The position numbers were made by a program, and so were the translations under genes. Below the pieces are notes generated by a model. The model was not told the origin of the DNA. It ran no database searches and saw only the letters and a list, made by a program, of their open reading frames with translations. Positions 11,369 through 55,107 of a DNA stretch of 64,000 nt are shown here, in pieces (the stretch's first letter is position 1; every line of letters begins with the position of its first letter). The stretch is from Cystobacter fuscus (GTDB lineage: Bacteria; Myxococcota; Myxococcia; Myxococcales; Myxococcaceae). The stretch spans positions 11,284,001-11,348,000 of the forward strand of contig NZ_CP022098.1 in NCBI RefSeq assembly GCF_002305875.1, read 5' to 3'.

Positions 11369-12276
11369 CGGTTGACACCGCATCGGCGCGAGTCGCGAAC
11401 TCCGTGAGACACCTCATCGTCGAGGTGCTCTGGGGGGCGTCCGCCGGCGCCAAGGGCATAGTCGAGCCGGGGCGTGTCCTCCAGGTGGGTCGAGCGGAAA
11501 CGGCGGGGTTGTCAGTGCCCGGCGATGCCTCAATGTCCGAGTTCCACTTCGAACTCGCCTGGAACGGAACGCATTGCTTGCTACGCGACCTGAGGAGCAC
11601 AACCGGCACGTTGCTCGAAGGGCTGCGGGTGGAGGCGGGCCAAGTCTCCCATGGAAGTTGGGTGCGCGCTGGGATGACGGACTTCTCCGTACACGTGGAA
11701 GCGATGACCCCTCCGAGTAGACCGATGGAAGCGGAGACTCTGGCGCGAAAGGAGCTCGCGGACAAGGCCTTGAAGGCCTTGGCATCCCAATCAGGGCCAC
11801 TGTTCGCGGTGATGGACGCGGCGAGAGATGCGCGCGTACTCGTTCTGCTGCGGGAGTCCGTGGAAGAGTACCGCTCCCTCTACGAGGGTCCTGAGGGGGA
11901 TGCCCTGGCGGAGGTTGCGCCGGTACTGGCGAGCCTGCCCAAGGACTCGCGCCTGTTGGCGTCCTTGGTCCAAGAAGGATGGGGAATGAATTGGGGGTTG
12001 TTCCTCACCAGCCAACAGCCCTTCAGGGACGTGCGGCGACACCTGCGGAAGTTCCTCATGGTCCAGAGCGCCACGGCCCAGGAACTCTACTTTCGCTTCT
12101 ACGATCCACGAGTACTCCCCATCTTTCTTTCCGGGTGTTCGTCCGAGCAGCTCCAGGAGTTCTTCGGAGGCATCGATTCTTTCTCGATGGAGGGTTCCGG
12201 AGGAGGGCGCCTCCTCCTCTTTTCAGTGAGAGAGCACAAGGTTCTCCGGGACGAGGTATCACTCGTTTCCGCGTGA
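11365..12276 (+). CDS. FHA domain fused to DUF4123 effector adaptor
   Basis: About 303 residues. The N-terminal half (about 20-115) has an FHA pattern: a GRVLQVGR strand, then SEFHFEL, LRDLRSTTGTLLEG and a final FSVHVE strand. The C-terminal half (about 140-280) resembles DUF4123, with LFAVMDAARD, an inner helical part and RFYDPRVLPIFLSG, the family's best-conserved motif. DUF4123 proteins are chaperones or adaptors that load effectors onto VgrG or PAAR. The FHA domain suggests control by Ser/Thr phosphorylation. The ATG at 11365 was chosen because it overlaps the PAAR stop; an upstream in-frame start at 11311 would lie inside the PAAR gene. Confidence 0.82.
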   Translation: MTVDTASARVANSVRHLIVEVLWGASAGAKGIVEPGRVLQVGRAETAGLSVPGDASMSEFHFELAWNGTHCLLRDLRSTTGTLLEGLRVEAGQVSHGSWVRAGMTDFSVHVEAMTPPSRPMEAETLARKELADKALKALASQSGPLFAVMDAARDARVLVLLRESVEEYRSLYEGPEGDALAEVAPVLASLPKDSRLLASLVQEGWGMNWGLFLTSQQPFRDVRRHLRKFLMVQSATAQELYFRFYDPRVLPIFLSGCSSEQLQEFFGGIDSFSMEGSGGGRLLLFSVREHKVLRDEVSLVSA

Positions 12277-12321
12277 GCGCGTACTGCGGGGTCGAAGCGC
12301 ATAAGCAGATGGAGGGAAGAC

Positions 12322-15246
12322 ATGTTCAAGCTCAGCCAGGAGCAAATAGAGGCCTTCCGCCCAGTCTGGCGGACGAAGTCAGTCGAGCGTGTCCTCGCGG
12401 GTTTGCGGTTGGAAGGGTTCCAGGCCGAGCGAGAGCTGGCTACCGGTGACATCGTCACCACCGATGCGCGTGGCTTCCAGACGCGCATGACCTTCCAGAC
12501 GGACGGCCTGCCCGCCAAGCTGACGCCGCCCTCGGGAAACACGGTGGGCTTCGAGTTCGACGCCCAGGGGCGCTTGTCGACCATCATCCATCCAGGCCCC
12601 GAACGGTTGGAGATAGAGCGGGACGCGAGAGGCAATGTCGTCATGCTTCGCCGCCCTGGCCTGATGTCGTACCTGCTGCGGTATGACGACAAGGATCGCC
12701 CACTGTTGATCCGCTACCCAGACGGCAACACGGTCCGTTTCACCTACCACCCAGCGGGACCGGTGGAGAGCGTGACTGACCGCACCGGCGCGATCACCCG
12801 CTACGAGCGCGACGAGACCGGCAGACTGAGGGCCATCATCGATCCACTCGGCCGCAAGACGACTTATGAGACCGACGCAGAAGGGACGCTGAAGTCCGTC
12901 GTCTTCCCGGACGGGTCTCGCCAGGAGCACGTACCGCATCCGGAGGAGTTGTCCGCGGTGGTCGTCCTGCGTGATGGCCGTCAGGTCGTCCACGAGTTCG
13001 ATGAGGGTGTGCGGGTCCTCAAGGCCATCACCTGGGCCGATGGGTCGCGAACGGAGTTCGAGCTGAAGGGGAATACCCTGACGGCCGCGCGCAACGATTT
13101 CGGAGCCCTCACGAGCACCCTCGATGCCGACGGCAACCCGCTCACGGACGAGTCGCCATTCGGGCGGGTCGAGTACGCCTATGACGAAGAGGGGCGCATG
13201 GTGCGCATGGTCTCACCACACGGCGAGACCCTCGAATACGAGTATGACGAGGACGGTCGGCTCGGTCTGGTACGAGACTGGGGGAGGAACGAGACCCGAT
13301 TCCGTTACGCACCGGGCGGGACTGTCTCGGAGATACGTTACGGAAACGGTCTGCTCGAGACGCAGTCGTACGCGAGCACCGGAAGGCTGGCCCATGCATG
13401 TGTCGTCAGCCAGAATGGAAGGACACTCAGCGAGCAGCGATACGAATACGATTCCTGCGAGCGGCTGACGGCCGTCGCGGATGGGGGGGCCGAACGCTTT
13501 GGACAGCCCATGACCCGGCGCTTCCTTTATGACGCCGAGAGTCGGCTGCTTGGCGAGATGGATGCCACGACGGGTCAGTTGCTGGTGCGCTATGCGTATG
13601 ATGCAAAGGGGAACCTCGTCGATGACGCAGGCACCCGGGTGAGCATGGGGCTGATGGATGAGCCCCGTGTATATGGAGATCGATCTGTCGAGTATGACGG
13701 AAATGGAAACATAGTTCGGCTACCGACTCCAGGCGGCGAATTGTGGTGTTCCTTTGGTGGTGACGGGTTACTGCGCGAGACGCGCGGTGGGGACCGGGAA
13801 GTCCGCTATGGCTATGATGCCCTCGGACGCCGGGTGCTCAAGACGGATGGACGGACAACGTGGAAGTATGGCTGGGCAGGGCACCAGCTCCTATGGGAAG
13901 AGGTGCAGTGGAACCCCGGAGCGGCACCCGTGCGACGGGATTACCTCTTCCTGCCCGAGACGGTGATTCCTCACGCCTTCCGAGAGAACGGGCGGACATA
14001 CTGGCTGCAGACAGATGCGCGCGGGGCTGTCGTCCGGGCTTTCGACGAGTCGGGCCAGGTCGTCTGGAGCGCACGCTATGACTCTTTTGGTGTGGTTCGG
14101 GTGGAGATTGCCGAAGTGCGGCAACCCTGGCGACTGGCCGGGCAGTACGAGGATGAGGAGACAGGGCTCTACTACAATCATGCCCGGTACTATTGCGCAT
14201 GGCTGAAGTCCTACCTCTCACGCGATCCGCGTTGGTACGAGCCAGACGCGACGAACTACAGTTACTGCCGCAACGATCCCTGGAACCGGGCGGACCCTTT
14301 TGGTGGGCTCGCGCCCCTGCTCGCCGTGGGCATCGCTGGCCTGGTGGGGGCCGCGGTAGGGGCGGTGACCGCGGCCGTGACTGGAGGAGATCCCGTCGCC
14401 GGAGCCGTGGAAGGAGCCATCGCGGGAGCGGGAGCTCTCGTGGCTGTCGTCGCTGGGGCATCGGCTGGGGTGGTGCTCGCGGCGGGCGTGGTCGCCACCG
14501 GCATCGGCGCTTTCGCTGGTCAGCTCATCGAGCAGGCACAGAATGGGGATGGCTTCTGTCTCATGTGCGCCCTGAAAGGGGCGCTCGTGGCCGCGACCAT
14601 CGACCTCGCCCTCCTGGGGCTCGGAAAAATTCCCGGCGTCAAACAAGCCGCCAGACGGCTGGGGAGGAAGCTTCTCCAGGCGGTTCACCCCGGGCTGCGC
14701 AGAGCCCGGAAGATCGCTGACAAACGCCTGGCCAGGCACTTGGAAAACGTGGCGGCACACAAAGCCAAATACGAGAAGGCCCTGGAGGCGGCCAAGAAGC
14801 GCAATGCCAAACCCAGAACACTCGGCGCACACAAGGGGAAGATCACCGAAGCCGTGGGTGAAGAGGCCGCGGCGAAGCACGTGGCGAAGAACCATCCAGA
14901 ACTCGAATTGCGCCACGGATTCAAGCAGGGGGTCGGGTTCGATCAGGTCTATGTGAAGCGGGGTCTGGACGGGAAGATCAAGGAATATGTCATTGTCGAG
15001 GCCAAGGGGCCTGGCGCCAAACTCGGCACCACCAAGACCAAGGGAGACCAGATGAGCACACAGTGGGTCAAGGGCACGGCCGAGGAAATGGCAGCGAAGA
15101 ACATGGGTTTGGGCAGGGAATTGGTGGAAGCCCTGGGCAGCAAGCCCCCTCCAAAGGTGACCGGTATGGTGGTGGAAGCCCTGGAGGGAGGCGGAGCCCG
15201 CGAATATCTGCCGCCCGGGATTCAAGCGTCTGGTAGATACAACTGA
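12322..15246 (+). CDS. RHS-repeat effector with C-terminal nuclease-like toxin domain
   Basis: The 974-residue protein contains YD/RHS repeats from about residue 50 to 600 (patterns such as YEYDEDGRL and YAYDAKGNL). The RHS core follows at about 606-658, with GQYEDEETGLYYNHARYY, YLSRDP and DPFGGL. Next comes a Gly/Ala-rich hydrophobic segment (about 660-740) that may insert in a membrane during delivery. A charged linker leads to a C-terminal toxin domain (about 833-974). That domain has GFDQVY, then YVIVEAKG, then a QMSTQW motif, in the order D...ExK...Q expected of a PD-(D/E)XK nuclease. RHS shells encapsulate and release such toxins. A GGAGGGAAG ribosome-binding site precedes the ATG. The next genes are the likely immunity proteins. 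Confidence 0.88.
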   Translation: MFKLSQEQIEAFRPVWRTKSVERVLAGLRLEGFQAERELATGDIVTTDARGFQTRMTFQTDGLPAKLTPPSGNTVGFEFDAQGRLSTIIHPGPERLEIERDARGNVVMLRRPGLMSYLLRYDDKDRPLLIRYPDGNTVRFTYHPAGPVESVTDRTGAITRYERDETGRLRAIIDPLGRKTTYETDAEGTLKSVVFPDGSRQEHVPHPEELSAVVVLRDGRQVVHEFDEGVRVLKAITWADGSRTEFELKGNTLTAARNDFGALTSTLDADGNPLTDESPFGRVEYAYDEEGRMVRMVSPHGETLEYEYDEDGRLGLVRDWGRNETRFRYAPGGTVSEIRYGNGLLETQSYASTGRLAHACVVSQNGRTLSEQRYEYDSCERLTAVADGGAERFGQPMTRRFLYDAESRLLGEMDATTGQLLVRYAYDAKGNLVDDAGTRVSMGLMDEPRVYGDRSVEYDGNGNIVRLPTPGGELWCSFGGDGLLRETRGGDREVRYGYDALGRRVLKTDGRTTWKYGWAGHQLLWEEVQWNPGAAPVRRDYLFLPETVIPHAFRENGRTYWLQTDARGAVVRAFDESGQVVWSARYDSFGVVRVEIAEVRQPWRLAGQYEDEETGLYYNHARYYCAWLKSYLSRDPRWYEPDATNYSYCRNDPWNRADPFGGLAPLLAVGIAGLVGAAVGAVTAAVTGGDPVAGAVEGAIAGAGALVAVVAGASAGVVLAAGVVATGIGAFAGQLIEQAQNGDGFCLMCALKGALVAATIDLALLGLGKIPGVKQAARRLGRKLLQAVHPGLRRARKIADKRLARHLENVAAHKAKYEKALEAAKKRNAKPRTLGAHKGKITEAVGEEAAAKHVAKNHPELELRHGFKQGVGFDQVYVKRGLDGKIKEYVIVEAKGPGAKLGTTKTKGDQMSTQWVKGTAEEMAAKNMGLGRELVEALGSKPPPKVTGMVVEALEGGGAREYLPPGIQASGRYN

Positions 15247-43026: not shown

Positions 43027-43614
43027 TCAAGGCGGGGACAACGCGCGGGTGAGGCCCAACAGATGACGCAGGATGCGGCCGGTGGCGCCCCAGATGACGT
43101 GGCTCTCGTAGGTGTAGAAATCCACCTCGTACGCCACGCCCCGTGAGAAGTGGGGCTCGACGCGGTGGGCGGTGGGATCCATCAGGTGCGCCAGGGGCAC
43201 CTCGACGATGAACTCCACTTCCGCGGGGTTGGGCTTGTACTCCAGGCCATGGGGAAGCACGCCCACGAAGGGTTGGATGCGGAAGCCCGAGCCGCCCAGG
43301 GTGGGCACTTCGTCCAGGGCACCGAGCACGCGCACTCCCGTCACGTCGATGCCGAGTTCCTCGCGCGTCTCGCGCAGCGCGGTCTGCAGGGGCGTGGGGT
43401 CCACGGCGTCGCGCGAGCCGCCGGGGAAGGAGTACTGGCCGGCGTGGTGGCGCAGCGTGGTGGGCCGCTTGGTGAAGAGCACCTGGGGCACCCCGTCGCG
43501 CAGGAGCAGGGGCACCAACACCGCCGCCTCGCGCAGCACGAGCCCCGGCATGCGCAACGCCTGGGGCGGCCGGGTGGACAGCTGATTCTCGAGCGCGTCG
43601 AAGAGAGGGTGCAC
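43027..43614 (-). CDS. Nudix hydrolase, CoA pyrophosphatase type
   Basis: The 195-residue enzyme has a Nudix box variant: GGSRDAVDPTPLQTALRETR followed by EELG, with the UPF0035-like start FPGG, typical of CoA pyrophosphatases (NudL). These cleave CoA to 4'-phosphopantetheine and 3',5'-ADP. The GTG start follows GGAG and lies two bases after the stop of uppP, so the two are co-transcribed. The C-terminus carries a YTYESHVIWGATGRI motif common in this subfamily. Confidence 0.85.
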   Translation of the reverse strand: MHPLFDALENQLSTRPPQALRMPGLVLREAAVLVPLLLRDGVPQVLFTKRPTTLRHHAGQYSFPGGSRDAVDPTPLQTALRETREELGIDVTGVRVLGALDEVPTLGGSGFRIQPFVGVLPHGLEYKPNPAEVEFIVEVPLAHLMDPTAHRVEPHFSRGVAYEVDFYTYESHVIWGATGRILRHLLGLTRALSPP

Positions 43615-43616
43615 GG

Positions 43617-44510
43617 CTACTCCGTCAGTTGCTTCTCCACGGGGACCATGAGGGGCTTCTTCGGGGTGTCCGTGTTCTCCAACCCGGACTGGGGGTGCAG
43701 CACGCCCCGCTGCAACAGCACGAGCAGCAGGCAGCCGAGCGCCACGCGGTAGACGATGAAGACGAGCGTGGAGCGTCGGCGCAGGTAGCTCAACAGCCAC
43801 GCGATGGCGGCCCATCCCGAGCCGAAGGCCACCAGCGTGCCCACCACCAGCGCCAGCGTCGAGGGACGCTCGGTGGCCTCCAGCAGGTGCTTGAGTTCGA
43901 AGAGACCCGCGAGCGAGGTGGCGGGAATGGACAGGAGGAAGGAGTAGCGCGCCGCGTCCTCGCGCCGCAGCCCCAGGGACAGGGCCCCGGTGATGGTGGT
44001 GCCCGAGCGCGAGGAGCCCGGAATGAGGGCGAGCGCCTGCCACAGCCCCACGATGATGCCGTCGCGCCAGGTCATCTGCTCCAGGGTGCGCTGGTGCGAG
44101 GCCAGGCGCTCCACGACGAAGAGGATGAGGGCGAGCAGGATGAGGCTCGCCGAGATGACGTAGAGCGAGCGCAGCGACGTCTCGATGCTCTTCTTGAAGA
44201 GCAGGCCGCACACGCCGATGGGCAGCGTGCCCACGAGCACGAACCACGCGAGGCGCGAGTCGGTGGTGGCCATGGGCTGGCGCCGCACGAGCCCCTGGAA
44301 GAAGGCCCGGCCGAGCGTGACCAGATCCTTGCGGAAGTAGATGAGCACGGCCGCCACGGTGCCCAGTTGGATGACGGCCGAGTACGCCGCGCCCGGATCG
44401 GCCCAGCCGAACAGCTCCGGAACGATGCGCAGGTGCGCGGTGGAGCTGATGGGCAGGAACTCGGTCAACCCCTGGACCAGTCCGAGAACGATGGCTTGGA
44501 AGAGACTCAT
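43617..44510 (-). CDS. uppP: Undecaprenyl-diphosphatase UppP
   Basis: The 297-residue multi-pass membrane enzyme recycles the cell-wall lipid carrier by removing phosphate from undecaprenyl diphosphate. Signatures are GLTEFLPISSTAHL near residues 14-27 and IPGSSRSGTTITG near 163-175, both with catalytic residues intact. Length is near the family norm. It is the first gene of a pair with the Nudix gene and faces ychJ across an 80 bp divergent spacer. Confidence 0.95.
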   Translation of the reverse strand: MSLFQAIVLGLVQGLTEFLPISSTAHLRIVPELFGWADPGAAYSAVIQLGTVAAVLIYFRKDLVTLGRAFFQGLVRRQPMATTDSRLAWFVLVGTLPIGVCGLLFKKSIETSLRSLYVISASLILLALILFVVERLASHQRTLEQMTWRDGIIVGLWQALALIPGSSRSGTTITGALSLGLRREDAARYSFLLSIPATSLAGLFELKHLLEATERPSTLALVVGTLVAFGSGWAAIAWLLSYLRRRSTLVFIVYRVALGCLLLVLLQRGVLHPQSGLENTDTPKKPLMVPVEKQLTE

Positions 44511-44590
44511 AGAGGAGGGAAGTGCATGTATGCGCTAGCCTCCAGGGCAGCAAGGTCCTTCACGTCGGAGCTGTCTTCCGGAAACACCTC

Positions 44591-45196: not shown

Positions 45197-46183
45197 GTGA
45201 ATCGGACGCGGTCGAGGTCATCACGCCACCAGGGCAGAGGAAGTCTCGGCGGTCTGGCGCTCCTGGGCGCCCTGTTGGCCGGCTGCGAGACGTACTTCGT
45301 GGACCCCTACCCGCCCGACATCAGCACCCTGCCCCGTGAACGGGTGATGAAGGTGCGCGATACTCCCGTGGTCTACGGCCTCATCTTCGACCTCCACATT
45401 CCCAATGCCGCCGAGTGCACCCGCGTCAAGGGGCAGCTGACGGCGACCCTGCGGGCCGCGCTGCTCCCCCCGGGCCGGGAGGGGATGGAGCTGTCCGTCC
45501 ATGACCTCTCACCGGGGTGTGTACAGCCCAGCCAACGGACGTACCCCTATACCCGCTATGCGGAGCAGCACGCGGCGGCGGTGGCACGCTTCGGTCAGGG
45601 ACGGTTCAAGCCGGTGTTGCTCTACTTCAACAACGTGGAGCTGACGCTTCCGCCGTCCCTGAGGGAAGACTTCATCAATCTGCAAAACGGGGGCGGCAAC
45701 TCCCCTCAAGTCTGGGCCCTGACGACCCAGGAGGTCCTGAGCAACATCCGGTTCACCCAGAGCGCGCTCTGGACCTACAGCTCGGATCCCCGCCTGACGG
45801 CGAAGCTCGAGGAGCTGGCCCGGGCGCAGTTGCCTTTCATCCAGCACGAGCAGCCCCCCGCGGGGGGCTTTGCCCTGTTCACCTCGCAGGAGCTCTCCTG
45901 GGTGCGGGAATTCAAGGGGTGTACCTACGCGACCGGCCTGAGCGGCATGAACTTCGTCTACGGACCCCAGACCCTCACGGTGAACGCGGCCTATCCCCCC
46001 CGCTACCAGGTGACCGTCCCCACGCAGGAGCCGGTCCCTCGCAACCAGAAGCTCGAACCGGTGACCATCCGCTTCGCGCTCGAGGCGTGTCGCGAGCATT
46101 GCGAGCGCTTCTTCTCCACCTCCGAGGGCGAGTTGCTGTCCTGGAACGCCACGCCCCGCTGTCTCCTGTCGGGCTCCCTCTGA
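45197..46183 (+). CDS. Lipoprotein opening the motor-like operon
   Basis: A 328-residue protein starting with GTG. A signal ends LLGALLAGC, a lipobox with +2 Glu, so it may go to the outer membrane. The body has a VYGLIFDLHIPNAAECTRVK segment, an RFKPVLLYFNNVELTLPPSL strand, YPYTRYAEQHAA and several Cys that could form disulfides (GCVQPSQ, GCTYATGL, CREHCERF, PRCLL). No family is recognised. Its TGA overlaps the ATG of the next gene (TGATG at 46181-46185), so it leads a ten-gene operon. The last half repeats TxxxVPTQEPVPRN-like beta strands. Confidence 0.7.
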   Translation: MNRTRSRSSRHQGRGSLGGLALLGALLAGCETYFVDPYPPDISTLPRERVMKVRDTPVVYGLIFDLHIPNAAECTRVKGQLTATLRAALLPPGREGMELSVHDLSPGCVQPSQRTYPYTRYAEQHAAAVARFGQGRFKPVLLYFNNVELTLPPSLREDFINLQNGGGNSPQVWALTTQEVLSNIRFTQSALWTYSSDPRLTAKLEELARAQLPFIQHEQPPAGGFALFTSQELSWVREFKGCTYATGLSGMNFVYGPQTLTVNAAYPPRYQVTVPTQEPVPRNQKLEPVTIRFALEACREHCERFFSTSEGELLSWNATPRCLLSGSL

Positions 46184-46785
46184 TGCTCTCCGGACTCCTC
46201 CTCGTCCTGCTCGCCGCGGATCCCGCCTCGCCCATTCCCGGCACCGAGGGCACGCCCGTGCGCGTCGAGCGGCGGCTCCTGCTCAAGCAGGGCCACGTGT
46301 TCGCCACGGGAGGCCCGGGCTACCTGGCGCGCGGCGACTACTACAACAACCCGGGCCTGCTGCTCTCCGGGAGCTGGTACCCGATGGAGACGGGCGGCGT
46401 GGAGCTCAAGCTCGCCCTGTTCTTCTCCTCGCTCAGCGCCGCGGGCTCCGAGGTCTTCGACCGCACCGGCCTCGTCCCCGACGCCCAACGCCCCGTCGCG
46501 CTGCTCGCGGCCGGCTGGCGGCATGCGCTCGGCTACGGCAAGGTGCTCGTCGGCACCGGGACGCTGCTGCACTTCGACGTGCAGGCCGCCGGCCACCTGG
46601 GCTTCACCTTCACCGATCGCGGGGTGAGCCCCTCGCCGATGGTCGGCCCCGGCCTGCTCGTGCGCGTGAGTCCGCGCGTCCACGCCCAGCTCGATGTGCC
46701 CCTCGTGGTGACCTTCGAGAAGCGCCAGCGGGGACTCGTGTCGCTCGGGGTACTGCCCACGCTGACGTTCGGGGTGGTGCTGTGA
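46183..46785 (+). CDS. Predicted outer-membrane beta-barrel protein
   Basis: About 200 residues. A signal peptide (MLSGLLLVLLAADPAS) is followed by alternating strands rich in Gly, Tyr and Leu (LYLARGDYYNNPGLLLSGSW-like, LALFFSSLSAAG) and ending LPTLTFGVVL, an aromatic/hydrophobic terminal strand typical of outer-membrane barrels. It overlaps both neighbours: the ATG shares bases with the previous stop and its TGA overlaps the next GTG. The function is probably structural or a pore for the operon's complex. Confidence 0.6.
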   Translation: MLSGLLLVLLAADPASPIPGTEGTPVRVERRLLLKQGHVFATGGPGYLARGDYYNNPGLLLSGSWYPMETGGVELKLALFFSSLSAAGSEVFDRTGLVPDAQRPVALLAAGWRHALGYGKVLVGTGTLLHFDVQAAGHLGFTFTDRGVSPSPMVGPGLLVRVSPRVHAQLDVPLVVTFEKRQRGLVSLGVLPTLTFGVVL

Positions 46786-48485
46786 GGGTACCGCTGCTCG
46801 CGGTGGCGCTCGCCACCCATCCCTACGCCGAGCCCTTCTGGGCCCGCGATCTCACCGCGCTGGTGGAGCGGCTCACCGCGCCTCCCGTGGACCCGGCCGA
46901 TGCCGAGCGGCAGCGGCTCTTCGGCGACGTGGTGAGCTTCCTCAACTGCGAGCCCCTCGCGCCGCTGCGGCCCGAGGACAGCCCCCGGGCCCCGCGCGCT
47001 CTGTTGCGACTGGAGGTGGCCCGCCGGGGCCGGCTCGGCGCGTCCGCCGCCTCCTCCGCCACGCTGTGGCGCGACGTGCTCACCCCCGACTTCTTCCGGC
47101 GCGCCGCGCTGCTCCCCAAGGAGCAGGCGCTGCGCTGGCCCATCGAGGAGGAGAACTGGTCCTCCGAGACGCTCGAGCTGCGGCTGCGGCCCTCGTCCTG
47201 TGGGCAGCCCGTCCCCGCCACGGATGAGCTGCCCCTGCTCACCTCCGAGCTGGAGCAGGAGGTGGACAAGACCCTGGGCGCGGAGGTGGCGCACCGGCTG
47301 CTCTACCACCGCGCATCCCGGCTGCTCACGCTCGGGCGGGCCGACGAGGCGCGGGAGGTGGCGCGCCGGTTGAATCCCTCCGCCATGGGCGACGCCCTGC
47401 GGCCCCTGGGCCAACTGCTGCGGCTCGGCCTCGGAATCGATCCCCCCGCGGGCTACCTGTCCCTCGTGGACGAGCCCGTGCTCTCCCCGTTGCGGATGCC
47501 CATCGTCGCGCAGGCCGCGGCGCACCTGTCCACCGAGGCCCGCTGGCGGGAGGTGCTCGCGATCACCGAGCCCTACGCCCCGAGGCCCGATGCCCGGGCC
47601 TCCCTCTCCGAGTCGCCCCAGCGCTGGGATGTCTTCTACCGGCGGGCGCTGGCGTACCAGGCGCTCGGGGAACGAGAGTCGCTCGCGCGCATGTGGCCCT
47701 CCATCTTCCCCGCCCTCGCCAGCGCCCAGGACTCCCGGGTGGAGGCGCTGCGAGGCATCGCCCTGGCCGATCTGGCGCGCGGCACGCTGGACACCCAGGC
47801 CCTGACGCTGCTGCGCGACCTGGGACCCGCCGCCGCCTTCCCCCGGCGGCTGGCCACCCTGGGAGGCCTCGCGCTGGACCGGGGCAACGTGCGGCTGGCG
47901 CTCGACGTCTCCGAGCGGTTGCTCCTCGAGAAGAGCGCCCTCTTCCGGGTCCGGGGGCACACCCTGCGCGCCGAGGTGGCGCTCGCCTCGGGCGACGCGA
48001 CGGGGCTCACCCGCGCCATCGAGCGGCTGCTCTCGCTGCGCCGTCAGGAGCCCGTGCCCACGAAGGACCTGGAAGAGGTGGACCGCATCGTGCTCGCGCT
48101 CGCACAGACGTTGGTGACGGCGAGCGCGGACCTGACGGAGGCGCGGTGGCGCCCCCTGCTCGCCGCCCAGTTGGAGGGGATGCGCCAGGCGGTGCACTCG
48201 CGCCACGAGAAGGCCTTTCCCGCGCTCCTCGCGGCACTCGAGGACCGGGGGCCCCAGGCGGCGGCGAAGGGCAAGCGACTGGAGGCCTTCGTCGCGGTGG
48301 GCCAGGTGGCGGTGGGCGCGCCTCCGGGACTCGAGCCTCCGCCGCCCCTCACCGTGAGCTGGCCAGAGCTGTGGTCCCTGCTCGCCCTTCCCCTTCCCGA
48401 GGGCTCCTGGCGCGACTGGTTCCCGCGCGAGCCCGCTTCCCCCGTCTCCGCTCCCGCGAAGACCGAGGTTCCGCATGCGCCGTGA
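46782..48485 (+). CDS. Helical-repeat (TPR-like) protein
   Basis: The 567-residue protein begins with GTG inside the previous stop (GTGA). The N-terminus is hydrophobic (VRVPLLAVALATH) and may be a signal. The rest is helical, with TPR- or SEL-like blocks: RLLTLGRADEAREVARRLNP, YQALGERESLARMW and LALDRGNVRLALDVSERLL. Such arrays bind protein partners. The end is Pro-rich (EPPPPLTVSW). No family is recognised. It overlaps the next gene by 11 bases. Confidence 0.6.
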   Translation: MRVPLLAVALATHPYAEPFWARDLTALVERLTAPPVDPADAERQRLFGDVVSFLNCEPLAPLRPEDSPRAPRALLRLEVARRGRLGASAASSATLWRDVLTPDFFRRAALLPKEQALRWPIEEENWSSETLELRLRPSSCGQPVPATDELPLLTSELEQEVDKTLGAEVAHRLLYHRASRLLTLGRADEAREVARRLNPSAMGDALRPLGQLLRLGLGIDPPAGYLSLVDEPVLSPLRMPIVAQAAAHLSTEARWREVLAITEPYAPRPDARASLSESPQRWDVFYRRALAYQALGERESLARMWPSIFPALASAQDSRVEALRGIALADLARGTLDTQALTLLRDLGPAAAFPRRLATLGGLALDRGNVRLALDVSERLLLEKSALFRVRGHTLRAEVALASGDATGLTRAIERLLSLRRQEPVPTKDLEEVDRIVLALAQTLVTASADLTEARWRPLLAAQLEGMRQAVHSRHEKAFPALLAALEDRGPQAAAKGKRLEAFVAVGQVAVGAPPGLEPPPPLTVSWPELWSLLALPLPEGSWRDWFPREPASPVSAPAKTEVPHAP

Positions 48486-49638
48486 AGCCATCGTCCTCCT
48501 CACCGGGCTCCTGTGGGCGCTCGGCGCGGGGGCCCAGACGCCCACAGAAGAGGCGCCGCCGACGTCACCCCCCGACAACGAGATGTCCGCCGAGGCCAGC
48601 ATCTACGCCCGGCCGCGCACGCCCCCACGGCTGGAGGCGCGCGAGGGACGGCTCGTGCGACCGGGTGACCGCGTGGACGCCAACGACGTGCTGGATGAGA
48701 TCATCGACGAGTTCGCCGCGGACGTGGCGCGCCTGGGCGCCAGCCGCATCTCTCCCATCCTCCTGGAGCGGGTGCGCGTCTCGGAGAACATGAATCCCGA
48801 GTTCGCGAGCGTCTTCGAGGCGCGCCTGGTGGCCGCCATCTACCGCGCGGCGAACGTGCGGGTGGTGCGCTGCTACGAGTGCTACGCCACGCACGCCCAG
48901 GTGGAGGATGGCACGTGGGTGGTGCGCCGGGGTCTGGCGCGCCGAGAGGACCTGCAGGAGGTGATGAAGAAGTACAACGCCCAGGTGGTGCTCAGCGCGA
49001 GCCTCACCCTGTACACCGCGCCCAACTCCTTCGCGTTCGACGTGGAGATGGTGCGCGGGGATGACGCCTCCATCTTCTTCGCCGAGGGCTACCGGGTGCA
49101 CCCGCACACGGCGCTGCTCTACCGCTCCGCGGACAAGGTGCAGCACCGGGAGGCGCGGCTCAAGGACCTGGAGGACCGCATCAACGCGAAGCCGCGCTTC
49201 AATCACGCGGTGCACCTGGGCGCCATCATCATCCCCACCCAGAACCATCCGGACGGGGCCATCTGGGCGCCCTACACCGCCTACCGGTTCACCGAGGCGT
49301 TCGGGGAGGAGCGCACCTGGCGCGCGGGCGGGACGGTGGCGGCCATCATCAACCCCACGCGCATCGGAGGCGCGCTGCTGGAGGCCACGCTGCTCTCGCG
49401 CATCAACAAGGAGAACGTCTACAGCATCAACTGCTTCGGGGGCGGTTCCGTGGGCTTCCTCGTCACGGGGGTGACGGGCAACTCGCCCATGATCAACGCC
49501 CAGGCGGAGTGTGTGCTGGCGCACCGGATCACCGTCCAGGCGAGCCTCGGGTACCTGGTGCCCTTCGCGAGCAGCGAGGACAGTACGTATTTCGTGGGCG
49601 GGGTGACCCCGCAGCTAGGGATGGGTTTCACATGGTGA
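48475..49638 (+). CDS. Exported protein with predicted C-terminal beta-barrel
   Basis: A 387-residue protein with a signal peptide (VLLTGLLWALGAGAQ). The middle (about 60-200) is an alpha/beta domain with VVRCYECYATHAQVEDG and VVLSASLTLYTAPNSF, resembling FlgT- or CsgG-like ABC/periplasmic domains. From about 235 the alternating strands (AVHLGAIIIPTQNH, GGTVAAIINPTRIGG, SVGFLVTG) finish TPQLGMGFTW, with a terminal aromatic residue as in outer-membrane barrels. It could be the envelope ring or channel of the complex. Comparison to FlgT-like domains is a weak structural hint. Confidence 0.6.
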   Translation: MRREAIVLLTGLLWALGAGAQTPTEEAPPTSPPDNEMSAEASIYARPRTPPRLEAREGRLVRPGDRVDANDVLDEIIDEFAADVARLGASRISPILLERVRVSENMNPEFASVFEARLVAAIYRAANVRVVRCYECYATHAQVEDGTWVVRRGLARREDLQEVMKKYNAQVVLSASLTLYTAPNSFAFDVEMVRGDDASIFFAEGYRVHPHTALLYRSADKVQHREARLKDLEDRINAKPRFNHAVHLGAIIIPTQNHPDGAIWAPYTAYRFTEAFGEERTWRAGGTVAAIINPTRIGGALLEATLLSRINKENVYSINCFGGGSVGFLVTGVTGNSPMINAQAECVLAHRITVQASLGYLVPFASSEDSTYFVGGVTPQLGMGFTW

Positions 49639-50309
49639 ACTCCAGGTACTGGGGATTGCTGCTCGCGGCGGTGCTGCCCGCGTGCACGACCACTCCGACC
49701 ACCAAGGTGATGGTGGTGCCGGATGAGATGCGGCGCTCGGCGGCCCCGAGCCGGCGGCCAGGAGCCGACAGGGACAGGGGCCCGCCCCTCACGCCGCCGC
49801 AGAAGTACATCCTGCGTCTGGCCGAGAACGGCCGCGTGTGGGAGATGGAGCTGCCCGAGGAGTCGGGGGGCTACGAGGTGCGCCTGCCGCTCGCGGGCGG
49901 AAGTCCCGTGGAGATGCTCACCTCCGCGGACGAGGAGATGCTCGCCGAGTCCGTGCTGGGCTTGAAGCAGGACAAGGCCCCCGCGTCCAAGGGCGAGACG
50001 AAGCCGGCGGGCAACGCCCCGGTGGTGGACGCGAACCGGGCGGCGCGCACGCGCAGCTACCTGGGGGGCGTGGCGCGGGTGAAGGAGATGTACGCCGCGC
50101 GCAAATACGAACTGGCCCTCATCGAGCTCGTGGCGCTGGAGAAGGAATACCCCCAGGACGCGCGGCTGCTGGCCATGAAGGGCTCGCTCTACGTCAAGCT
50201 GAACCAGCCCAAGCTGGCCCGGCAGGCGTGGGAGAAGGCCCTGTCCATCAATCCGGACGACGCGGGCGTGGCCGAGGCCCTGCGCGCCACCACCGCGGGA
50301 GAGGAGTAG
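49632..50309 (+). CDS. TPR lipoprotein
   Basis: About 225 residues, with a lipobox LLAAVLPAC. A short beta segment (QKYILRLAENGRVWEMELPE) is followed by a linker and a C-terminal TPR pair (AARKYELALIELVALEKEYP, LLAMKGSLYVKLNQPKLARQ). It overlaps the preceding stop by seven bases (ATGGTGA) and stops four bases before the MotA-like gene. The arrangement resembles pilotin- or PilF-like lipoproteins that stabilise outer-membrane assemblies. GTG at 49635 is an alternative start. Confidence 0.65.
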   Translation: MVNSRYWGLLLAAVLPACTTTPTTKVMVVPDEMRRSAAPSRRPGADRDRGPPLTPPQKYILRLAENGRVWEMELPEESGGYEVRLPLAGGSPVEMLTSADEEMLAESVLGLKQDKAPASKGETKPAGNAPVVDANRAARTRSYLGGVARVKEMYAARKYELALIELVALEKEYPQDARLLAMKGSLYVKLNQPKLARQAWEKALSINPDDAGVAEALRATTAGEE

Positions 50310-50313
50310 GACC

Positions 50314-51114
50314 ATGCACTTCATCGTCGGAATGCTGGGGCTCGGCCTGACCCTGGCCTACACCCTGACCCAGGGGCACGCGAGCGGCTTCGGGGGCATC
50401 ATCCACGTGCCCTCGCTCGTGCTGCTGGGGTTCGCGCCGCTGTGCATGACGGTGGCCTCGTACAAGTTCAGCGAGCTCGGGGGCGCGGCGCGGGCGGTGG
50501 TGCGCGCGCTGCGCTTCTCCGCGTCGCGCTCGCGCGCCCAGCTCTATGAGGCCCTCACCCAGTTCGCCGCCGAGGTGCGCCAGCGTCGTCCGGCCCGCGC
50601 GCTGGAGATCGCCAATCAGGCGCAACACGACGTGCTGCGGCAGCTCGGGCCCCTCGTCATCCGCCAGTACTCCACCGCGGACATCGAAAGCACCGCCAGC
50701 ACGTCGCTCTTCTGCATGGTGAGTGGCATGAAGCGCGCCGAGGACGTCCTGGGCACGCTGTCGCGCGTGGCGCCGGCCACGGGCCTCGTGGGCACGGTGC
50801 TCGGACTCATCTCGCTGCTCAAGGACCTGTCGCGCTTCGAGCAGCTCGGCCCCTCCATGGCGCTCGCGCTCTTGTGCACCCTGTACGGCCTGCTGCTCGC
50901 CAATGCCGTGTACCAGCCGCTCGGACGCGTCATCCACTCGCACATGACGGTGGCGGTGGAGGAGGCGCGGCTCATCACCCGCGCGCTCGTGCTCATCCGC
51001 GAGGACAAGCCGCTCGCGGACGTGCGCAAGCTCTTCGAGCTGTCCGGCACCTCGCCCCATGGCGCGGGCGCCCCGGCCGCCGAGATCGCCACCGGAACGG
51101 CGGGTGAGCCGTGA
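50314..51114 (+). CDS. MotA/TolQ/ExbB-family proton channel protein
   Basis: The 266-residue protein has four membrane segments: residues 1-18, about 26-50, about 150-168 (VAPATGLVGTVLGLISLL) and 187-210 (GPSMALALLCTLYGLLLANA). The TGLVGTVLGL signature and the large cytoplasmic loop between segments 2 and 3 are those of MotA. With the next gene it should form a proton-driven stator. A GAGGAGTAGG ribosome-binding site lies before the ATG. The tail is short, unlike the long tail of ZorA in the Zorya defence system. It is not part of a flagellar operon. Confidence 0.88.
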   Translation: MHFIVGMLGLGLTLAYTLTQGHASGFGGIIHVPSLVLLGFAPLCMTVASYKFSELGGAARAVVRALRFSASRSRAQLYEALTQFAAEVRQRRPARALEIANQAQHDVLRQLGPLVIRQYSTADIESTASTSLFCMVSGMKRAEDVLGTLSRVAPATGLVGTVLGLISLLKDLSRFEQLGPSMALALLCTLYGLLLANAVYQPLGRVIHSHMTVAVEEARLITRALVLIREDKPLADVRKLFELSGTSPHGAGAPAAEIATGTAGEP

Positions 51115-51737
51115 AGGAGGATCCAGAGCTGCAAGAGATGCTGCGAGGCGGCCAGGAGGACGAGCTGTGGCTCATCAGCTACGCGGACCTGCTGACGCTG
51201 CTCATCGGCTTCTTCGTGCTGCTGCTCGCCGTGTCGCCGCCGAAGATGGCGCAGTTCGAGCGCATGGCGGCCTCGCTCTCGGGCGAGGCGCCCCCCCTGG
51301 AGGAGCTCAAGGACAAGGTGGACACCTTCATCACCCAGGAGGGGTTGCAGCAGAAGGTGCTCACCCGCCAGGAGACGGACGGGCTGGCCATCGAGTTCAA
51401 GGACGCGCTCCTGTTCGACTCGGGCTCGGCGGACATCCGCGCCGAGGGCAACGCGGCGATCACCTCGATCGCCCGGATGCTACAGACGCTGCCCTCTCGT
51501 GGGCTCGTCATCGAGGGGTACACCGATGACGTGCCCATCCGCACCGCCCGCTTCGCCTCCAACTGGGAGCTGTCCTCGCAGCGCGCCATCAACGTGCGCA
51601 CCGCCCTCGAGCAGAGCGGTGTGGGCCGTGAGCGGATGTCGGTGCGGGGCTTCGCCGATACCCGCCGCGTCGACGTCCCGGGCTCGCCCGAGGAACAACG
51701 CGCCGCCAACCGCCGGGTCGTCATCCGGGTGGAATAG
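51111..51737 (+). CDS. MotB-like stator protein with OmpA-type peptidoglycan-binding domain
   Basis: The 208-residue protein starts with a GTG overlapping the MotA-like stop (GTGA). One membrane span (about 19-40, ELWLISYADLLTLLIGFFVL) contains Asp26, placed like the proton-carrying Asp of MotB. A short linker and plug-like helix lead to an OmpA-type domain (about 95-208) with LLFDSGSADIRAEG, EGYTDDVPI, NWELSSQRA and ANRRVVIRVE, which binds peptidoglycan. It is compact compared with flagellar MotB. Confidence 0.9.
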   Translation: MKEDPELQEMLRGGQEDELWLISYADLLTLLIGFFVLLLAVSPPKMAQFERMAASLSGEAPPLEELKDKVDTFITQEGLQQKVLTRQETDGLAIEFKDALLFDSGSADIRAEGNAAITSIARMLQTLPSRGLVIEGYTDDVPIRTARFASNWELSSQRAINVRTALEQSGVGRERMSVRGFADTRRVDVPGSPEEQRAANRRVVIRVE

Positions 51738-51740
51738 CCA

Positions 51741-53453
51741 ATGACTCGCCTGTCACGACATCTTCTGCCGCTGCTTCCCGTCCTGGCCTGGGCGGGCATT
51801 GCCCCGGCCGCGCCCTCCACGCCCCAGGCCCGCCTGCGCGCGGAGTCCGAGGAGCGGGCTCGCACGGAGATCACCGATTTGTTGCGCACCCTCTGCCCCG
51901 AGCAATGCGTGCTCGTGTCGGTGGAGGCCCGCGTCGAGGAGGAGGCCGTGGGCGGCGCGGCTCCGGGCTTCGAGAGCCTGTCGACGAGCGCGAGCCTGCC
52001 TACCCTGCGCTCGGTGAGCGCGCGCGTGCTGACGGACAGCCAGCTACCGGGCCCCTTCCGCACCCGGCTCAAGGACCTGGTGGCCCAGCGTCTCAAGACG
52101 GTGAGCGCCCAGCCCACGGTCGAGATGGAATCCGTGGCCTTCCCGCCACGCAACGCCCCCCACCTGGAGGCGCCCCCCCGCGAGGCGAAGCCGCCCCCGC
52201 CCTCGGCCACGCCCACCCCTCCACCCGAAAACGAGCCAGAGCCCAAGCCCGAGGTGCCCCTGAGCCAGCGCGCCGAGGAGCGACTGCTGGAGGCGGCCCC
52301 CTTGCTGGCGGTGGCGGCGCTGCTCGCGCTGACGGTGCTGGTGCTGGGCGTGCTGCTCGTGGTGGCCACCCGCCGCGCGTCGCCGCCCCCGGGCCTGGAG
52401 TATGGGCCGGAGCTGCCCCTGCCTCCCCTCGAGCCCGCGCCCGCGGCCCCTCCCGCCCCCACCGAGTACCCGTCCCAACGGGCCGGGCGGCTGGAGCGGA
52501 CGCTGCGCGAGGAGCGCTCGGTGCGCAACGCCGTGGTGCGCGAGGCGCTCGCGCGGGGCGAGCTGCGGCAGGTGGCGCTGTGGACCCGGGAGATGGGGGA
52601 GTTCCTCCTGGAGGACCTGAGAGGAGACCCCGCTCTGTCCGCGTCGCTGGTGGGACTCGCCGCCGAGCTGGGGCGCGTGCCCTCCGTGGACGAGGGAGCA
52701 CGGGCCTCCGCGCTGTACGACCTGGAGGGGCGGACCATCGCCTCGCGGCTGACCCAGGCGGAAGGCTCGGTGGAGATGGCCTTCGCCTTCCTGGAGGGGG
52801 TGCGGCCCGAACGCTTCGCGAGCGCGTGCCTGGGCCTGGCGCCGGGAGCCCGGGAGGTGGCGCTGCGCTTCGCGCCCTCCGCGCTGCGCTCGACGGCCCT
52901 GCAGTCCCTGAACTCCGCCCAGCGACGGGAGCTCGCGCTGGGCCTCGCCCGCCAGCCCGAGCTGAGCACGCGCTACGCCCTGGCGGTGGCGGACGAGCTG
53001 CGCACCCAGCTCGCCGAGAGCACGGGAGGCGTCTCCCAGCTCGAGCGCGTCCTGGGCGAGGTGCTCGACACGCTGTCCATGGCCGATCAGGACCGGCTCG
53101 TCGAGCGGCTGCGGCAGGAAGGCTCGGAGAAGCTGGCCTCGTCCCTGGTCACCGAGTCCACCCTGGTGAACGCGCCGGTGGAGGTGCTCGGTGCGGCCCT
53201 GCTGCGCCTGCCCGCGGCCCAGGTCGTCACCTATCTGAGTGGGGCCGAGGGCTCGTTGCGTGAACAACTGTTGAATGCCTGCCCCGCCTCGCTCCAGCGC
53301 GAATTGCGCGAGGAGCTGGGAATGCGCGGCGGGGGACGTCCAGAGGAGTTCACTGGCGCCAGAAGAGAGCTGCTTGCCTGTGTGAAGGATGAGATGATTC
53401 GCAGGGGATTGAGCACATCGCAGAATGGCGCGCGCGCCGGGCGCGCCAATTGA
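51741..53453 (+). CDS. FliF-like/FliG-like fusion (rotor-like ring protein)
   Basis: The 570-residue protein has a signal peptide (1-23), then a periplasmic domain at about 30-136. Its order is a helix (RTEITDLLRTLC), a strand with VLVSVEARVEEEAV, a SVSARVLTDSQLPGPF strand and RTRLKDLVAQRLKTV helix, ending in VEMESVAFP, like the ring-building part of FliF. A Pro-rich linker and one membrane span (about 186-210) follow. The cytoplasmic part (about 250-560) is helical. Its last 90 residues align by pattern with FliG-C: TLVNAPVEVLGAALLRLP, VVTYLSGAEGSLREQLL, ELREELGMRG, then ARRELLACVKDEMIRRGL. That is the domain stators push in flagella. It directly follows motA- and motB-like genes. This is inference from pattern, not a search. 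Confidence 0.7.
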   Translation: MTRLSRHLLPLLPVLAWAGIAPAAPSTPQARLRAESEERARTEITDLLRTLCPEQCVLVSVEARVEEEAVGGAAPGFESLSTSASLPTLRSVSARVLTDSQLPGPFRTRLKDLVAQRLKTVSAQPTVEMESVAFPPRNAPHLEAPPREAKPPPPSATPTPPPENEPEPKPEVPLSQRAEERLLEAAPLLAVAALLALTVLVLGVLLVVATRRASPPPGLEYGPELPLPPLEPAPAAPPAPTEYPSQRAGRLERTLREERSVRNAVVREALARGELRQVALWTREMGEFLLEDLRGDPALSASLVGLAAELGRVPSVDEGARASALYDLEGRTIASRLTQAEGSVEMAFAFLEGVRPERFASACLGLAPGAREVALRFAPSALRSTALQSLNSAQRRELALGLARQPELSTRYALAVADELRTQLAESTGGVSQLERVLGEVLDTLSMADQDRLVERLRQEGSEKLASSLVTESTLVNAPVEVLGAALLRLPAAQVVTYLSGAEGSLREQLLNACPASLQRELREELGMRGGGRPEEFTGARRELLACVKDEMIRRGLSTSQNGARAGRAN

Positions 53454-53464
53454 GGGGATAGTTC

Positions 53465-54505
53465 ATGCGCGCGTTGGGGCTGATTCTTGTCGCCACCCTG
53501 GGCAGCGGCTGCATCATCGAGCCACCGGATCTGATCCGCTTGGACGGAGGAGATGAGTGGCCCGATGGGGGCAAACGTCCGACATCGGACGGCGGCTTCG
53601 ACATCGAATGGGACGGCGGTCTCGGAGGCGGAGGTGGCGGCTGGGACGGCGGAGCCTGGGACGCGGGCTCTGGGCCACGGGGGAACTTCCCGGGTGGCGG
53701 CGCGAACGGAGACCGTGGAACGGGCGTACTCTGGCTGGTGCGCATCGACCGGAGCACGGCGAATCTGGCCGCCTCGTATGGCTCGCTCATCGAGACGATG
53801 ACCCAGCAGCTCATCGCCCAGGGCTTCGACATCCGGAGAACGGCCGTGGGCTCGCTCTATGAGCCGAGGCTGTTGTCGGGCAACGAGAGCGCGACTCCAT
53901 CCGCCGCGAGCGTGCAGTCCCTGCTGGAGAGCGCGGCCACCTACAGCGGCACGACTCCCACCGGCTGCAGCAGCCAGCACCTGCTGTCGCTCACGGTCCG
54001 GCTCAGCGAGGCCACGGTGGCATCGTCTGGCTCCCGTCCCTTCGCGGACCCGCTCGGCGCCCTGCTCGTGGTGATGATCGACCATGGGAGCCATCCGCAA
54101 GACTACGGCCCCGGTTGTGACCCGGCCGAGAAGACCCCGGCGGAGCGGTTCGGCGTCGAGCACATGCCCTGGCTCAACATCGGCAGTCCCCCGACCTCCG
54201 CCTGGCGCATCCCCCGATCCCAGACGCGCTTCCTCTTCGTCTCCACGTCGGAGAACGAGAGCTACGCGCAGTTGCGTGAGCGCTGCGCGAGAATGAGCAC
54301 CTTCCCGCGGACCGCGCTCGATGCCATCAGCCCCTCGGAGCACCCCTTCTACGAGCCCTTCAGCGTCGGGCTGAACGGCTTCCAGCCCGGACTGGGGACG
54401 CGGATCGACCTGTGCCAGGCCGTGGCGCAGGACTGGGCGGGCTTCTCGCGCGGCTTCGCGAGGAACTGGGCCCAACTGCTGAGCCTGCCCGCCGACCAGA
54501 GATGA
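53465..54505 (+). CDS. Lipoprotein with Gly/Asp-rich linker
   Basis: A 346-residue protein with the lipobox LGSGC. A Gly/Asp-rich linker (GGGGGWDGGAWDAGSG) leads to a globular domain of vWA-like alternation: VLWLVRIDRSTANLA (a possible metal-site start), LLVVMIDHGSHPQDYGPGCD and FLFVSTSENESY. Cys residues probably form disulfides. The fold call is tentative. The gene is 11 bp after the FliF/FliG-like gene and overlaps the next one by an ATGA. It may be an envelope partner of the motor. Confidence 0.6.
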   Translation: MRALGLILVATLGSGCIIEPPDLIRLDGGDEWPDGGKRPTSDGGFDIEWDGGLGGGGGGWDGGAWDAGSGPRGNFPGGGANGDRGTGVLWLVRIDRSTANLAASYGSLIETMTQQLIAQGFDIRRTAVGSLYEPRLLSGNESATPSAASVQSLLESAATYSGTTPTGCSSQHLLSLTVRLSEATVASSGSRPFADPLGALLVVMIDHGSHPQDYGPGCDPAEKTPAERFGVEHMPWLNIGSPPTSAWRIPRSQTRFLFVSTSENESYAQLRERCARMSTFPRTALDAISPSEHPFYEPFSVGLNGFQPGLGTRIDLCQAVAQDWAGFSRGFARNWAQLLSLPADQR

Positions 54506-55107
54506 GGGCACGGGGCGCACCGCGAAGGGCCGGGCCGGTGGCGGGGGGAGTCCGCACCGCCTGGCGTCCGCGCGGAGCGCCCCGAGTCGTGGCCGCACGT
54601 GGGGCCAGGAGGCGCCCGACCGCCGCGTCCCGGCCCGCGCGGCGCTGGAGGTGGGGCCTCGCGGCGCTGCTCCTACTGTTCATGCTCTTCTGGCTGTGGC
54701 CCTCCACTCCCGAGCCCGTGCCCCCACCCGTGGCCGTGCCCGAGGCACCACCGCCGCCCCCCGTCGTCACGCGACCGGTGGTGAAGAAGAAGGTGGCACC
54801 CAAGCCCTCCCCTCCCCCCCCGGCGGCGCCCATGTCCTCGCAGCGGGCGCTGCTGCGCCGGGCCATGGAGGCGCGAGCCCCGGACCTGCGCGCCTGCGCC
54901 CTGCCCCCCGGAGCGCCCACGACGCTGGGAGCGAGGATTCGCGTGGCGCGCGGGGGAGCCACGAAGTCGGTCGCCTTCGCGTCCGGACAGCGCCTGCCCC
55001 GGGAGCTGGCCGAGTGCCTTCGCCAGCGCCTGCTCCAGTGGGAGTTCTCGGACGTGGGACTGAGCTCGGACGTGGAGATCTTCGTCGACTTCGCGCTCGG
55101 CGGATGA
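54502..55107 (+). CDS. Single-span TonB/AgmX-like protein
   Basis: The 201-residue protein has an Arg-rich N-terminus (about 1-48), one membrane span (WGLAALLLLFMLFWLW), a Pro-rich stretch (PVPPPVAVPEAPPPPPV) and a Lys-rich segment. It ends in a small domain with ALLRRAMEARAPDLRACALP, GARIRVARGGATKSVAF and ECLRQRLLQWEF. The layout is like TonB or the GltJ/AgmX proteins, which couple an inner-membrane motor to the outer membrane. Its ATG overlaps the previous stop. It ends the operon just before a strong hairpin. Confidence 0.7.
   Translation: MRARGAPRRAGPVAGGVRTAWRPRGAPRVVAARGARRRPTAASRPARRWRWGLAALLLLFMLFWLWPSTPEPVPPPVAVPEAPPPPPVVTRPVVKKKVAPKPSPPPPAAPMSSQRALLRRAMEARAPDLRACALPPGAPTTLGARIRVARGGATKSVAFASGQRLPRELAECLRQRLLQWEFSDVGLSSDVEIFVDFALGG

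Follow-up and report, generated by a model that had tools for sequence, protein, structure and literature searches.

Several described systems offer points of comparison for an operon of ten genes from Cystobacter fuscus, which lies at positions 45197-55107 of a stretch of 64,000 nucleotides (hereafter the window, bases 11284001-11348000 of a complete, single-contig genome of 12.35 Mb) and probably encodes a non-flagellar, ion-driven rotary machine that transmits force through the envelope as far as the outer membrane. The Glt part of the Agl-Glt gliding machinery of Myxococcus xanthus is composed of lipoproteins, outer-membrane proteins, and tetratricopeptide-repeat (TPR) and TonB-like parts. 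The stator of that machinery, AglRS, belongs to the generic (Tol/Exb) class in a recent survey, according to which stators of the flagellar class group together and apart from their non-flagellar homologues (PMC12505986). A natural FliF-like/FliG-like fusion outside the usual flagellum, devoid of RBM3, was characterized in chlamydiae (Bergeron 2016, PMC4768692), and a non-flagellar type III secretion locus of the Myxococcales was found to be without FliG and MotAB (Abby and Rocha 2012, PMC3459982).

The motor core of the operon is homologous to that of the flagellum, and the whole machine fits no known system. With the flagellar motor core (MotAB or PomAB, the FliF MS-ring and FliG), it shares a stator of the flagellar class, the middle and C-terminal domains of FliG with their torque-helix charges, and what appears to be an RBM3-like periplasmic domain, a single transmembrane helix standing here between the latter and the FliG parts. 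It differs from that core in having the FliF-like part and FliG in one chain, with no RBM1 or RBM2, and in lacking FliM as well as rod, hook and filament genes, instead of which it contains dedicated outer-membrane genes. No description of the operon was found in the open-access literature.

Stator and proposed rotor proteins

The protein encoded by gene 6 matched the Pfam family MotA_ExbB (E 8.8e-17), and its NCBIfam scores were highest for PomA (72.5 bits) and MotP (70.7) versus 26.2 for TolQ and 19.6 for ExbB. Likewise, a profile built from four homologues matched MotA/PomA entries of the PDB with E values of 5.8e-21 to 9.8e-19, and ExbB only with 5e-4. Phylogenetic trees, which contain just four to six flagellar sequences and no named AglR, gave a concordant picture: the first one drew its MotA/ExbB-family proteins from four genomes, and a branch with 100/99 support separated the operon copies, together with flagellar MotA/PomA, from every TolQ/ExbB/Agl-type paralogue sampled, among which seven are encoded in this genome. 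When long branches were removed, the support for the flagellar-side branch was 100/100; in this tree the four flagellar sequences constituted a clade (100/100) with the operon sequences outside it, and a single operon clade was not rejected (p value of the approximately unbiased test, p-AU, 0.29). By its sequence, then, gene 6 encodes a stator A subunit of the flagellar MotA/PomA (FIT) class. As for gene 7, its product contains a MotB_plug match (Pfam, E 1.9e-12) followed by an OmpA match (E 9.7e-18), its membrane Asp26 is invariant in the four sequences compared, and its best PDB matches are MotB chains (E 8e-39), all of which identifies it, at the sequence level, as a MotB with a plug, a transmembrane Asp and an OmpA-type peptidoglycan-binding domain. 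A preliminary description of this DNA had proposed MotA- and MotB-like stator proteins and a machine distinct from Agl-Glt. The former proposal was confirmed, with the addition of the flagellar class provided by the trees, and the latter holds at the level of the stator, as the other MotA/ExbB-type proteins encoded here, seven in number, are separated from gene 6 by a branch with good support.

Gene 8 sits right after the flagellar-class MotAB genes in all carriers whose contig reaches them. Its product matched Pfam FliG_C (PF01706) with E 7.8e-6 and 26.6 bits, over the curated cut-off, and the same family was detected over cut-off in the operon copy of 10 of the 14 carriers (best E 4.5e-8); in one further carrier, G161, the FliG_C signal comes from its own flagellar FliG (128 bits). 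An AlphaFold2 model was obtained from four sequences (predicted local distance difference test score, pLDDT, 66.7; predicted TM score, pTM, 0.36), in which a signal-like start is followed by an alpha-beta-beta-alpha-beta domain (residues 28-132), a linker, a transmembrane helix (186-211), a second linker and a helical region (244-562). When this model was compared with the PDB by Foldseek, the first 13 matches were all FliG (3ajc, E 1.3e-5), the next being FliF RBM3 (6sd1, E 0.027). VIA-align gave Z scores of up to 13.9 for FliG, including Z 13.0 for its C-terminal domain (1qc7; 1.9 A over 89 residues) and Z 12.4 for that domain bound to MotAB (8ucs_H; 2.0 A over 88 residues), and, for residues 25-135, a Z of 9-9.8 for FliF RBM3. 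The C-terminal half of gene 8 is thus identified, by sequence and predicted fold, as the FliG middle and C-terminal domains, and its periplasmic half is likely FliF-RBM3-like, judging from fold and position. In this way, the FliF/FliG-like protein of the preliminary description was borne out by sequence and predicted fold in its FliG part, and by predicted fold and position only in its FliF part.

In E. coli, FliG contacts MotA through R281, D288 and D289 (PMC12505986). The position equivalent to R281 is basic in 10 of 14 gene 8 homologues and is Ser in the window protein itself, that of D288 is Glu in 12, and that of D289 is Glu or Asp in all 14; a Glu-Glu pair occupies the two acidic positions in 12 of the 14 sequences. 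The alignment indicates that the torque-helix charges of FliG are largely kept in gene 8. In the model, the ordered periplasmic part amounts to only about 110 residues, and there is a single strong transmembrane helix; neither the RBM1/RBM2 (SctJ-like) domains nor the two-transmembrane arrangement of FliF were found in gene 8, and the FliG part is not a separate soluble protein with a FliM partner, being fused to the membrane and periplasmic part. The nearest single protein found is the chlamydial FliF-FliG fusion, from which gene 8 differs in that an RBM3-like domain appears to be retained, a SctJ-homology region is lacking and MotAB is encoded in the same operon. An invariant PGF motif (residues 75-77) was also observed in gene 8; it lies in the short loop between the two long strands of the periplasmic domain, at the site where FliF bears its large collar insert.

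The evidence on gene 8 could also be read in the opposite sense, that is, as describing a scaffold of helical repeats next to a proton channel of the MotAB kind that works by itself, its likeness to FliF and FliG being spurious. The modest sequence similarity (the above-mentioned 26.6 bits) and the fact that the periplasmic fold is a common one speak for this possibility, as does the failure of phmmer and profile searches of the PDB to find FliG, which means that the FliG link came from Pfam and from the fold, the sequence-only searches of the PDB having given none. When gene 8 homologues were aligned by hhalign with two FliG sequences (E 0.019) or with the RBM3 region of E. coli FliF (E 0.63), the scores were too thin to count alone. 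Several observations weigh directly against a FliF/FliG-type rotor: the FliF assignment is without significant sequence support; Pfam YscJ_FliF_C does not match the gene 8 protein; the confidence of the model is modest; of the three homologues at the greatest distance, two (L041 and L043) lack part of the acidic pair; and the C-terminal domain of MamB, ferredoxin-like and unrelated, reached Z 8.8, within one Z unit of FliF RBM3. Because of this tie, the FliF half is regarded as likely and not as proved. Nevertheless, a spurious likeness is quite improbable, given the recurrence of FliG_C in the operon copies, the uniformly FliG top of the Foldseek results, the largely kept torque-helix charges and the position of the gene directly behind the stator genes.

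Distribution of the operon and of flagellar genes

All ten genes, in identical order, were found together in ten further genomes belonging to two families (f1 and f7; L031-L038, L047 and L048), and the contigs that are cut within the operon are consistent with that order. Since these genes and their order recur in other genera and families, with proteins that are ~22-80% identical, chance is excluded as the origin of this arrangement. The core made of MotA, MotB and the FliF/FliG-type protein extends to three more distant families of the phylum: in G154 the order is 4-5-6-7-8-9-1-2, and G161 and G164 yielded fragments holding MotA, MotB and gene 8. The close carriage search covered the Myxococcota, and the operon was carried by 14 of 145 genomes of the order and by 17 of the 195 in the phylum search. 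Among the carriers is the myxobacterium Archangium lansinium, whose gene 8 is 75% identical. Searches of plasmids with genes 6 and 8 gave no match, and a match in L005 (Prevotellaceae), limited to a 41-residue stretch, was taken as chance.

The preliminary description had also noted that no flagellar hook, rod, export or filament gene was seen, and had suggested a survey of co-occurrence. Flg_bb_rod and YscJ_FliF_C had no match in this complete genome, and a rod protein and canonical FliF had none in 13 of the 14 carriers tested, that is, this genome and 12 of the 13 others (controls positive). The survey returned, besides the ten further genomes with the complete set, a near-general lack of rod and FliF genes in carriers. 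The exception is G161, which has a true flagellar set (FliG, FliF, FliM and rod) besides the operon. The fact that 13 of 14 carriers are without rod and FliF and that G161 has both systems indicates that the operon system is independent of flagella. The sequences of G161 are those of an incomplete assembly, with the flagellar set and the operon on contigs C523, C25, C1381 and C789, and this genome would be a natural place to compare both motors.

The homology of stator and rotor parts to flagellar ones could in principle be explained if the operon were the degenerate remnant of a lost flagellum. This is, however, very improbable: the ten genes are intact and their order is kept across families, the operon coexists with a full flagellum in G161, its MotA falls outside the sampled flagellar clade, and the partner genes have no flagellar match in Pfam or NCBIfam, except for a weak, generic TPR match of gene 5 to the spirochaete collar protein FlcA (NCBIfam, E 0.069). 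The similarities to MotA/B and to FliF/FliG that were anticipated from the DNA alone were recovered by sequence or predicted fold, and the genes were not found inside a normal flagellar or Tol-Pal locus.

There is no FliM gene within the operon, which makes a direction switch seem unlikely. Outside G161, FliM matches are weak, and they are absent from G011 and the f7 carriers tested. In this genome, a FliM/FliN-domain gene (7815-9185 of L101, G000:C1:3306000-3324000) lies near an export gene of the YscU/FlhB family (11854-12918); the pair is probably part of the Myxococcales non-flagellar type III secretion locus. For this reason, and in view of the absence of FliM from G011 and the f7 carriers, the FliM/FliN-domain gene was filed under type III secretion. 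The type III locus and the operon are both flagellum-related systems of the same order, and differ in that the former is without FliG and MotAB (PMC3459982) and the latter without secretion genes.

Envelope proteins and the proposed machine

Several of the remaining genes of the operon point to the outer membrane. Genes 1 and 9 have lipobox-like starts, and gene 3 is kept in place across families f1 and f7. The AlphaFold2 model of gene 4 (12 sequences, mean pLDDT 76) contains an eight-stranded barrel of the NspA/OmpA/OmpX type (VIA-align, Z up to 17) and a periplasmic domain that resembles LpoB (4q6l; Foldseek E 9e-5, VIA-align Z 11.2). Pfam gave nothing useful on the 12 gene 4 homologues, so that the assignment of these domains rests on fold; on that basis, gene 4 is predicted to encode a barrel of the outer membrane that carries an LpoB-like domain on the periplasmic side. 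The link to the outer membrane claimed in the preliminary description is upheld as far as this predicted protein goes, and its physical coupling to the motor is something that we only infer. Of 12 gene 10 homologues, 7 have a tail that matched the AgmX/PglI model NF033768, with E values down to 9.3e-6. In the genome of L004 and L037, genes 9 and 10 are in one open frame of 449 codons from the start of gene 9, which may be either a fusion or a sequencing frameshift.

A model can be proposed in which the MotA/MotB stator would pass ions while being held to the peptidoglycan by the OmpA domain of MotB, and its cytoplasmic face would turn a gene 8 ring through a MotA-FliG contact, as in flagella. 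The cytoplasmic half of that ring would be a FliG-type torque ring and the periplasmic half a FliF RBM3-type ring, one membrane helix joining them. The periplasmic ring would then hand its rotation to an outer-membrane assembly formed by genes 1, 2, 4, 5 and 9 and the TonB-like gene 10, with the TonB-like and periplasmic proteins presumably bridging the wall, as no rod was seen, and this assembly would do mechanical work at the outer membrane or the cell surface. The output might be surface traction, transport or wall work, the dragging of surface components for traction being our leading guess. This proposal is strongest where it concerns the stator class, FliG, the conservation of the operon and the lack of a flagellum, and weakest for the FliF identity, the outer-membrane coupling and the output.

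Beyond those raised for gene 8, some facts tell against the model. The equivalents of MotA Arg90 and Glu98 are only partly kept in gene 6, and the Glu is missing in some homologues; no gene was seen for an axle or rod that could carry torque across the wall; carriage within the order is patchy; and all functional claims rest on sequence and predicted folds.

The composition of the envelope genes allows two other accounts of what the motor does. According to the first, the rotor and stator would drive an outer-membrane adhesion complex, making the operon a second gliding motor, like Agl-Glt but with a flagellar-class stator. In its set of lipoproteins, outer-membrane barrels, and TPR and TonB-like proteins it is similar to Glt, both systems have a stator driven by the proton motive force, the tail of gene 10 is of the AgmX/PglI type, and a myxobacterium, A. 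lansinium, is among the carriers. In contrast, the operon stator belongs to the flagellar class instead of the Agl/Tol one, the operon includes a FliG/FliF-like rotor, and most relatives in the order are without the operon; the comparison was made at the level of the stator, the Glt proteins not having been searched for directly. On balance, a gliding motor is possible but somewhat doubtful.

A role of the Ton/Tol kind can be entertained with similar reserve. In this case, rotation would pull the TonB-like protein and the LpoB-like domain would control wall synthesis or an outer-membrane gate, resulting in transport or envelope reshaping. The nature of gene 10, the LpoB-like domain of gene 4, the three lipoprotein-like genes and the patchy, accessory distribution agree with such a role, and the operon shares with Tol-Pal and Ton the layout of an inner-membrane motor driven by the proton motive force and coupled to the outer membrane (as inferred for the operon) with the participation of a TonB-like protein. 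However, the stator is of another class, Ton and Tol systems can do without a FliG-like ring, and the fold match to LpoB does not demonstrate a function. Moreover, the operon has no TonB-dependent receptor or TolA/TolB set, and TolA, TolB and Pal had no match among its ten proteins in Pfam or NCBIfam.

Returning to the rotary machine, the chances seem evenly balanced that it represents a self-standing class, defined by a flagellar-class stator and a one-chain FliF/FliG-type rotor without flagellar export, rod or filament, and possibly derived from a lineage that split before the flagellar stators diversified. If this were true, bacteria without flagella that possess flagellar-class MotAB and a FliF/FliG-type rotor would depart from the grouping reported in the survey cited above (PMC12505986), and would provide a case of a torque-generating core working without an export machine. 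It would also make the origin or re-use of the flagellar motor directly testable, and would mean that myxobacterial envelopes contain a second kind of machine driven by the proton motive force.

Gene layout and surroundings

The ten plus-strand genes of the preliminary description were all present, the last stop codon ending at 55107 (Table 1; the starts of genes 2, 5 and 10 are those obtained after refinement). Its statement that nearly every junction overlaps was slightly too strong: overlaps occur at six of the nine, namely 1-2 (TGATG), 2-3, 3-4, 4-5, 6-7 (GTGA) and 9-10 (ATGA); at the remaining junctions the genes are separated by 4, 3 and 11 bases. The genes constitute one operon.

Table 1. 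Genes of the operon, with positions in the window and the features on which their description is based.
Gene	Position	Strand	Description
1	45197..46183	+	Lipoprotein (lipobox LAGC, Cys30); no known domain; invariant Cys residues among homologues
2	46183..46785	+	Small outer-membrane beta-barrel-type protein; TIGR04565 OMP_myx_plus E 1e-6, below cut-off
3	46782..48485	+	Helical-repeat protein with signal-like N-terminal segment; weak TPR_2, E 0.59
4	48475..49638	+	Outer-membrane protein by predicted fold: LpoB-like periplasmic domain (about 71-210), 8-stranded barrel (241-386)
5	49632..50309	+	Lipoprotein-like, LPAC near N-terminus; C-terminal TPR (TPR_1 E 1.7e-5, just under cut-off)
6	50314..51114	+	MotA-type stator A subunit, flagellar (FIT) class (Pfam, NCBIfam, PDB profile, trees)
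7	51111..51737	+	MotB-type stator B subunit; transmembrane Asp26; OmpA-type peptidoglycan-binding domain
8	51741..53453	+	FliF(RBM3-like)-transmembrane-FliG fusion, proposed rotor subunit (Pfam FliG_C, AlphaFold2, Foldseek, VIA-align)
9	53465..54505	+	Lipoprotein-like (GSGC); Gly/Asp-rich linker; conserved domain of no assigned type
10	54502..55107	+	TonB-like: basic N-terminus, one transmembrane segment, Pro-rich linker, C-terminal AgmX/PglI-tail-like domain

No flagellar gene is found among the immediate neighbours of the operon. On its 5' side, divergent on the minus strand, there are a gene of the BacA family (undecaprenyl pyrophosphate phosphatase) and an overlapping NUDIX-domain frame (43617-44510 and 43027-44553, respectively, both minus strand), as well as a response-regulator frame, also on the minus strand. 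The 3' neighbour is metK, on the minus strand. In other genera metK was not found adjoining the operon, and the surroundings therefore differ between carriers; within the genus, metK directly adjoins it in three genomes (L031/G001 and L047/G003 being those compared), and in G002 (L032) the two are ~3.5 kb apart.

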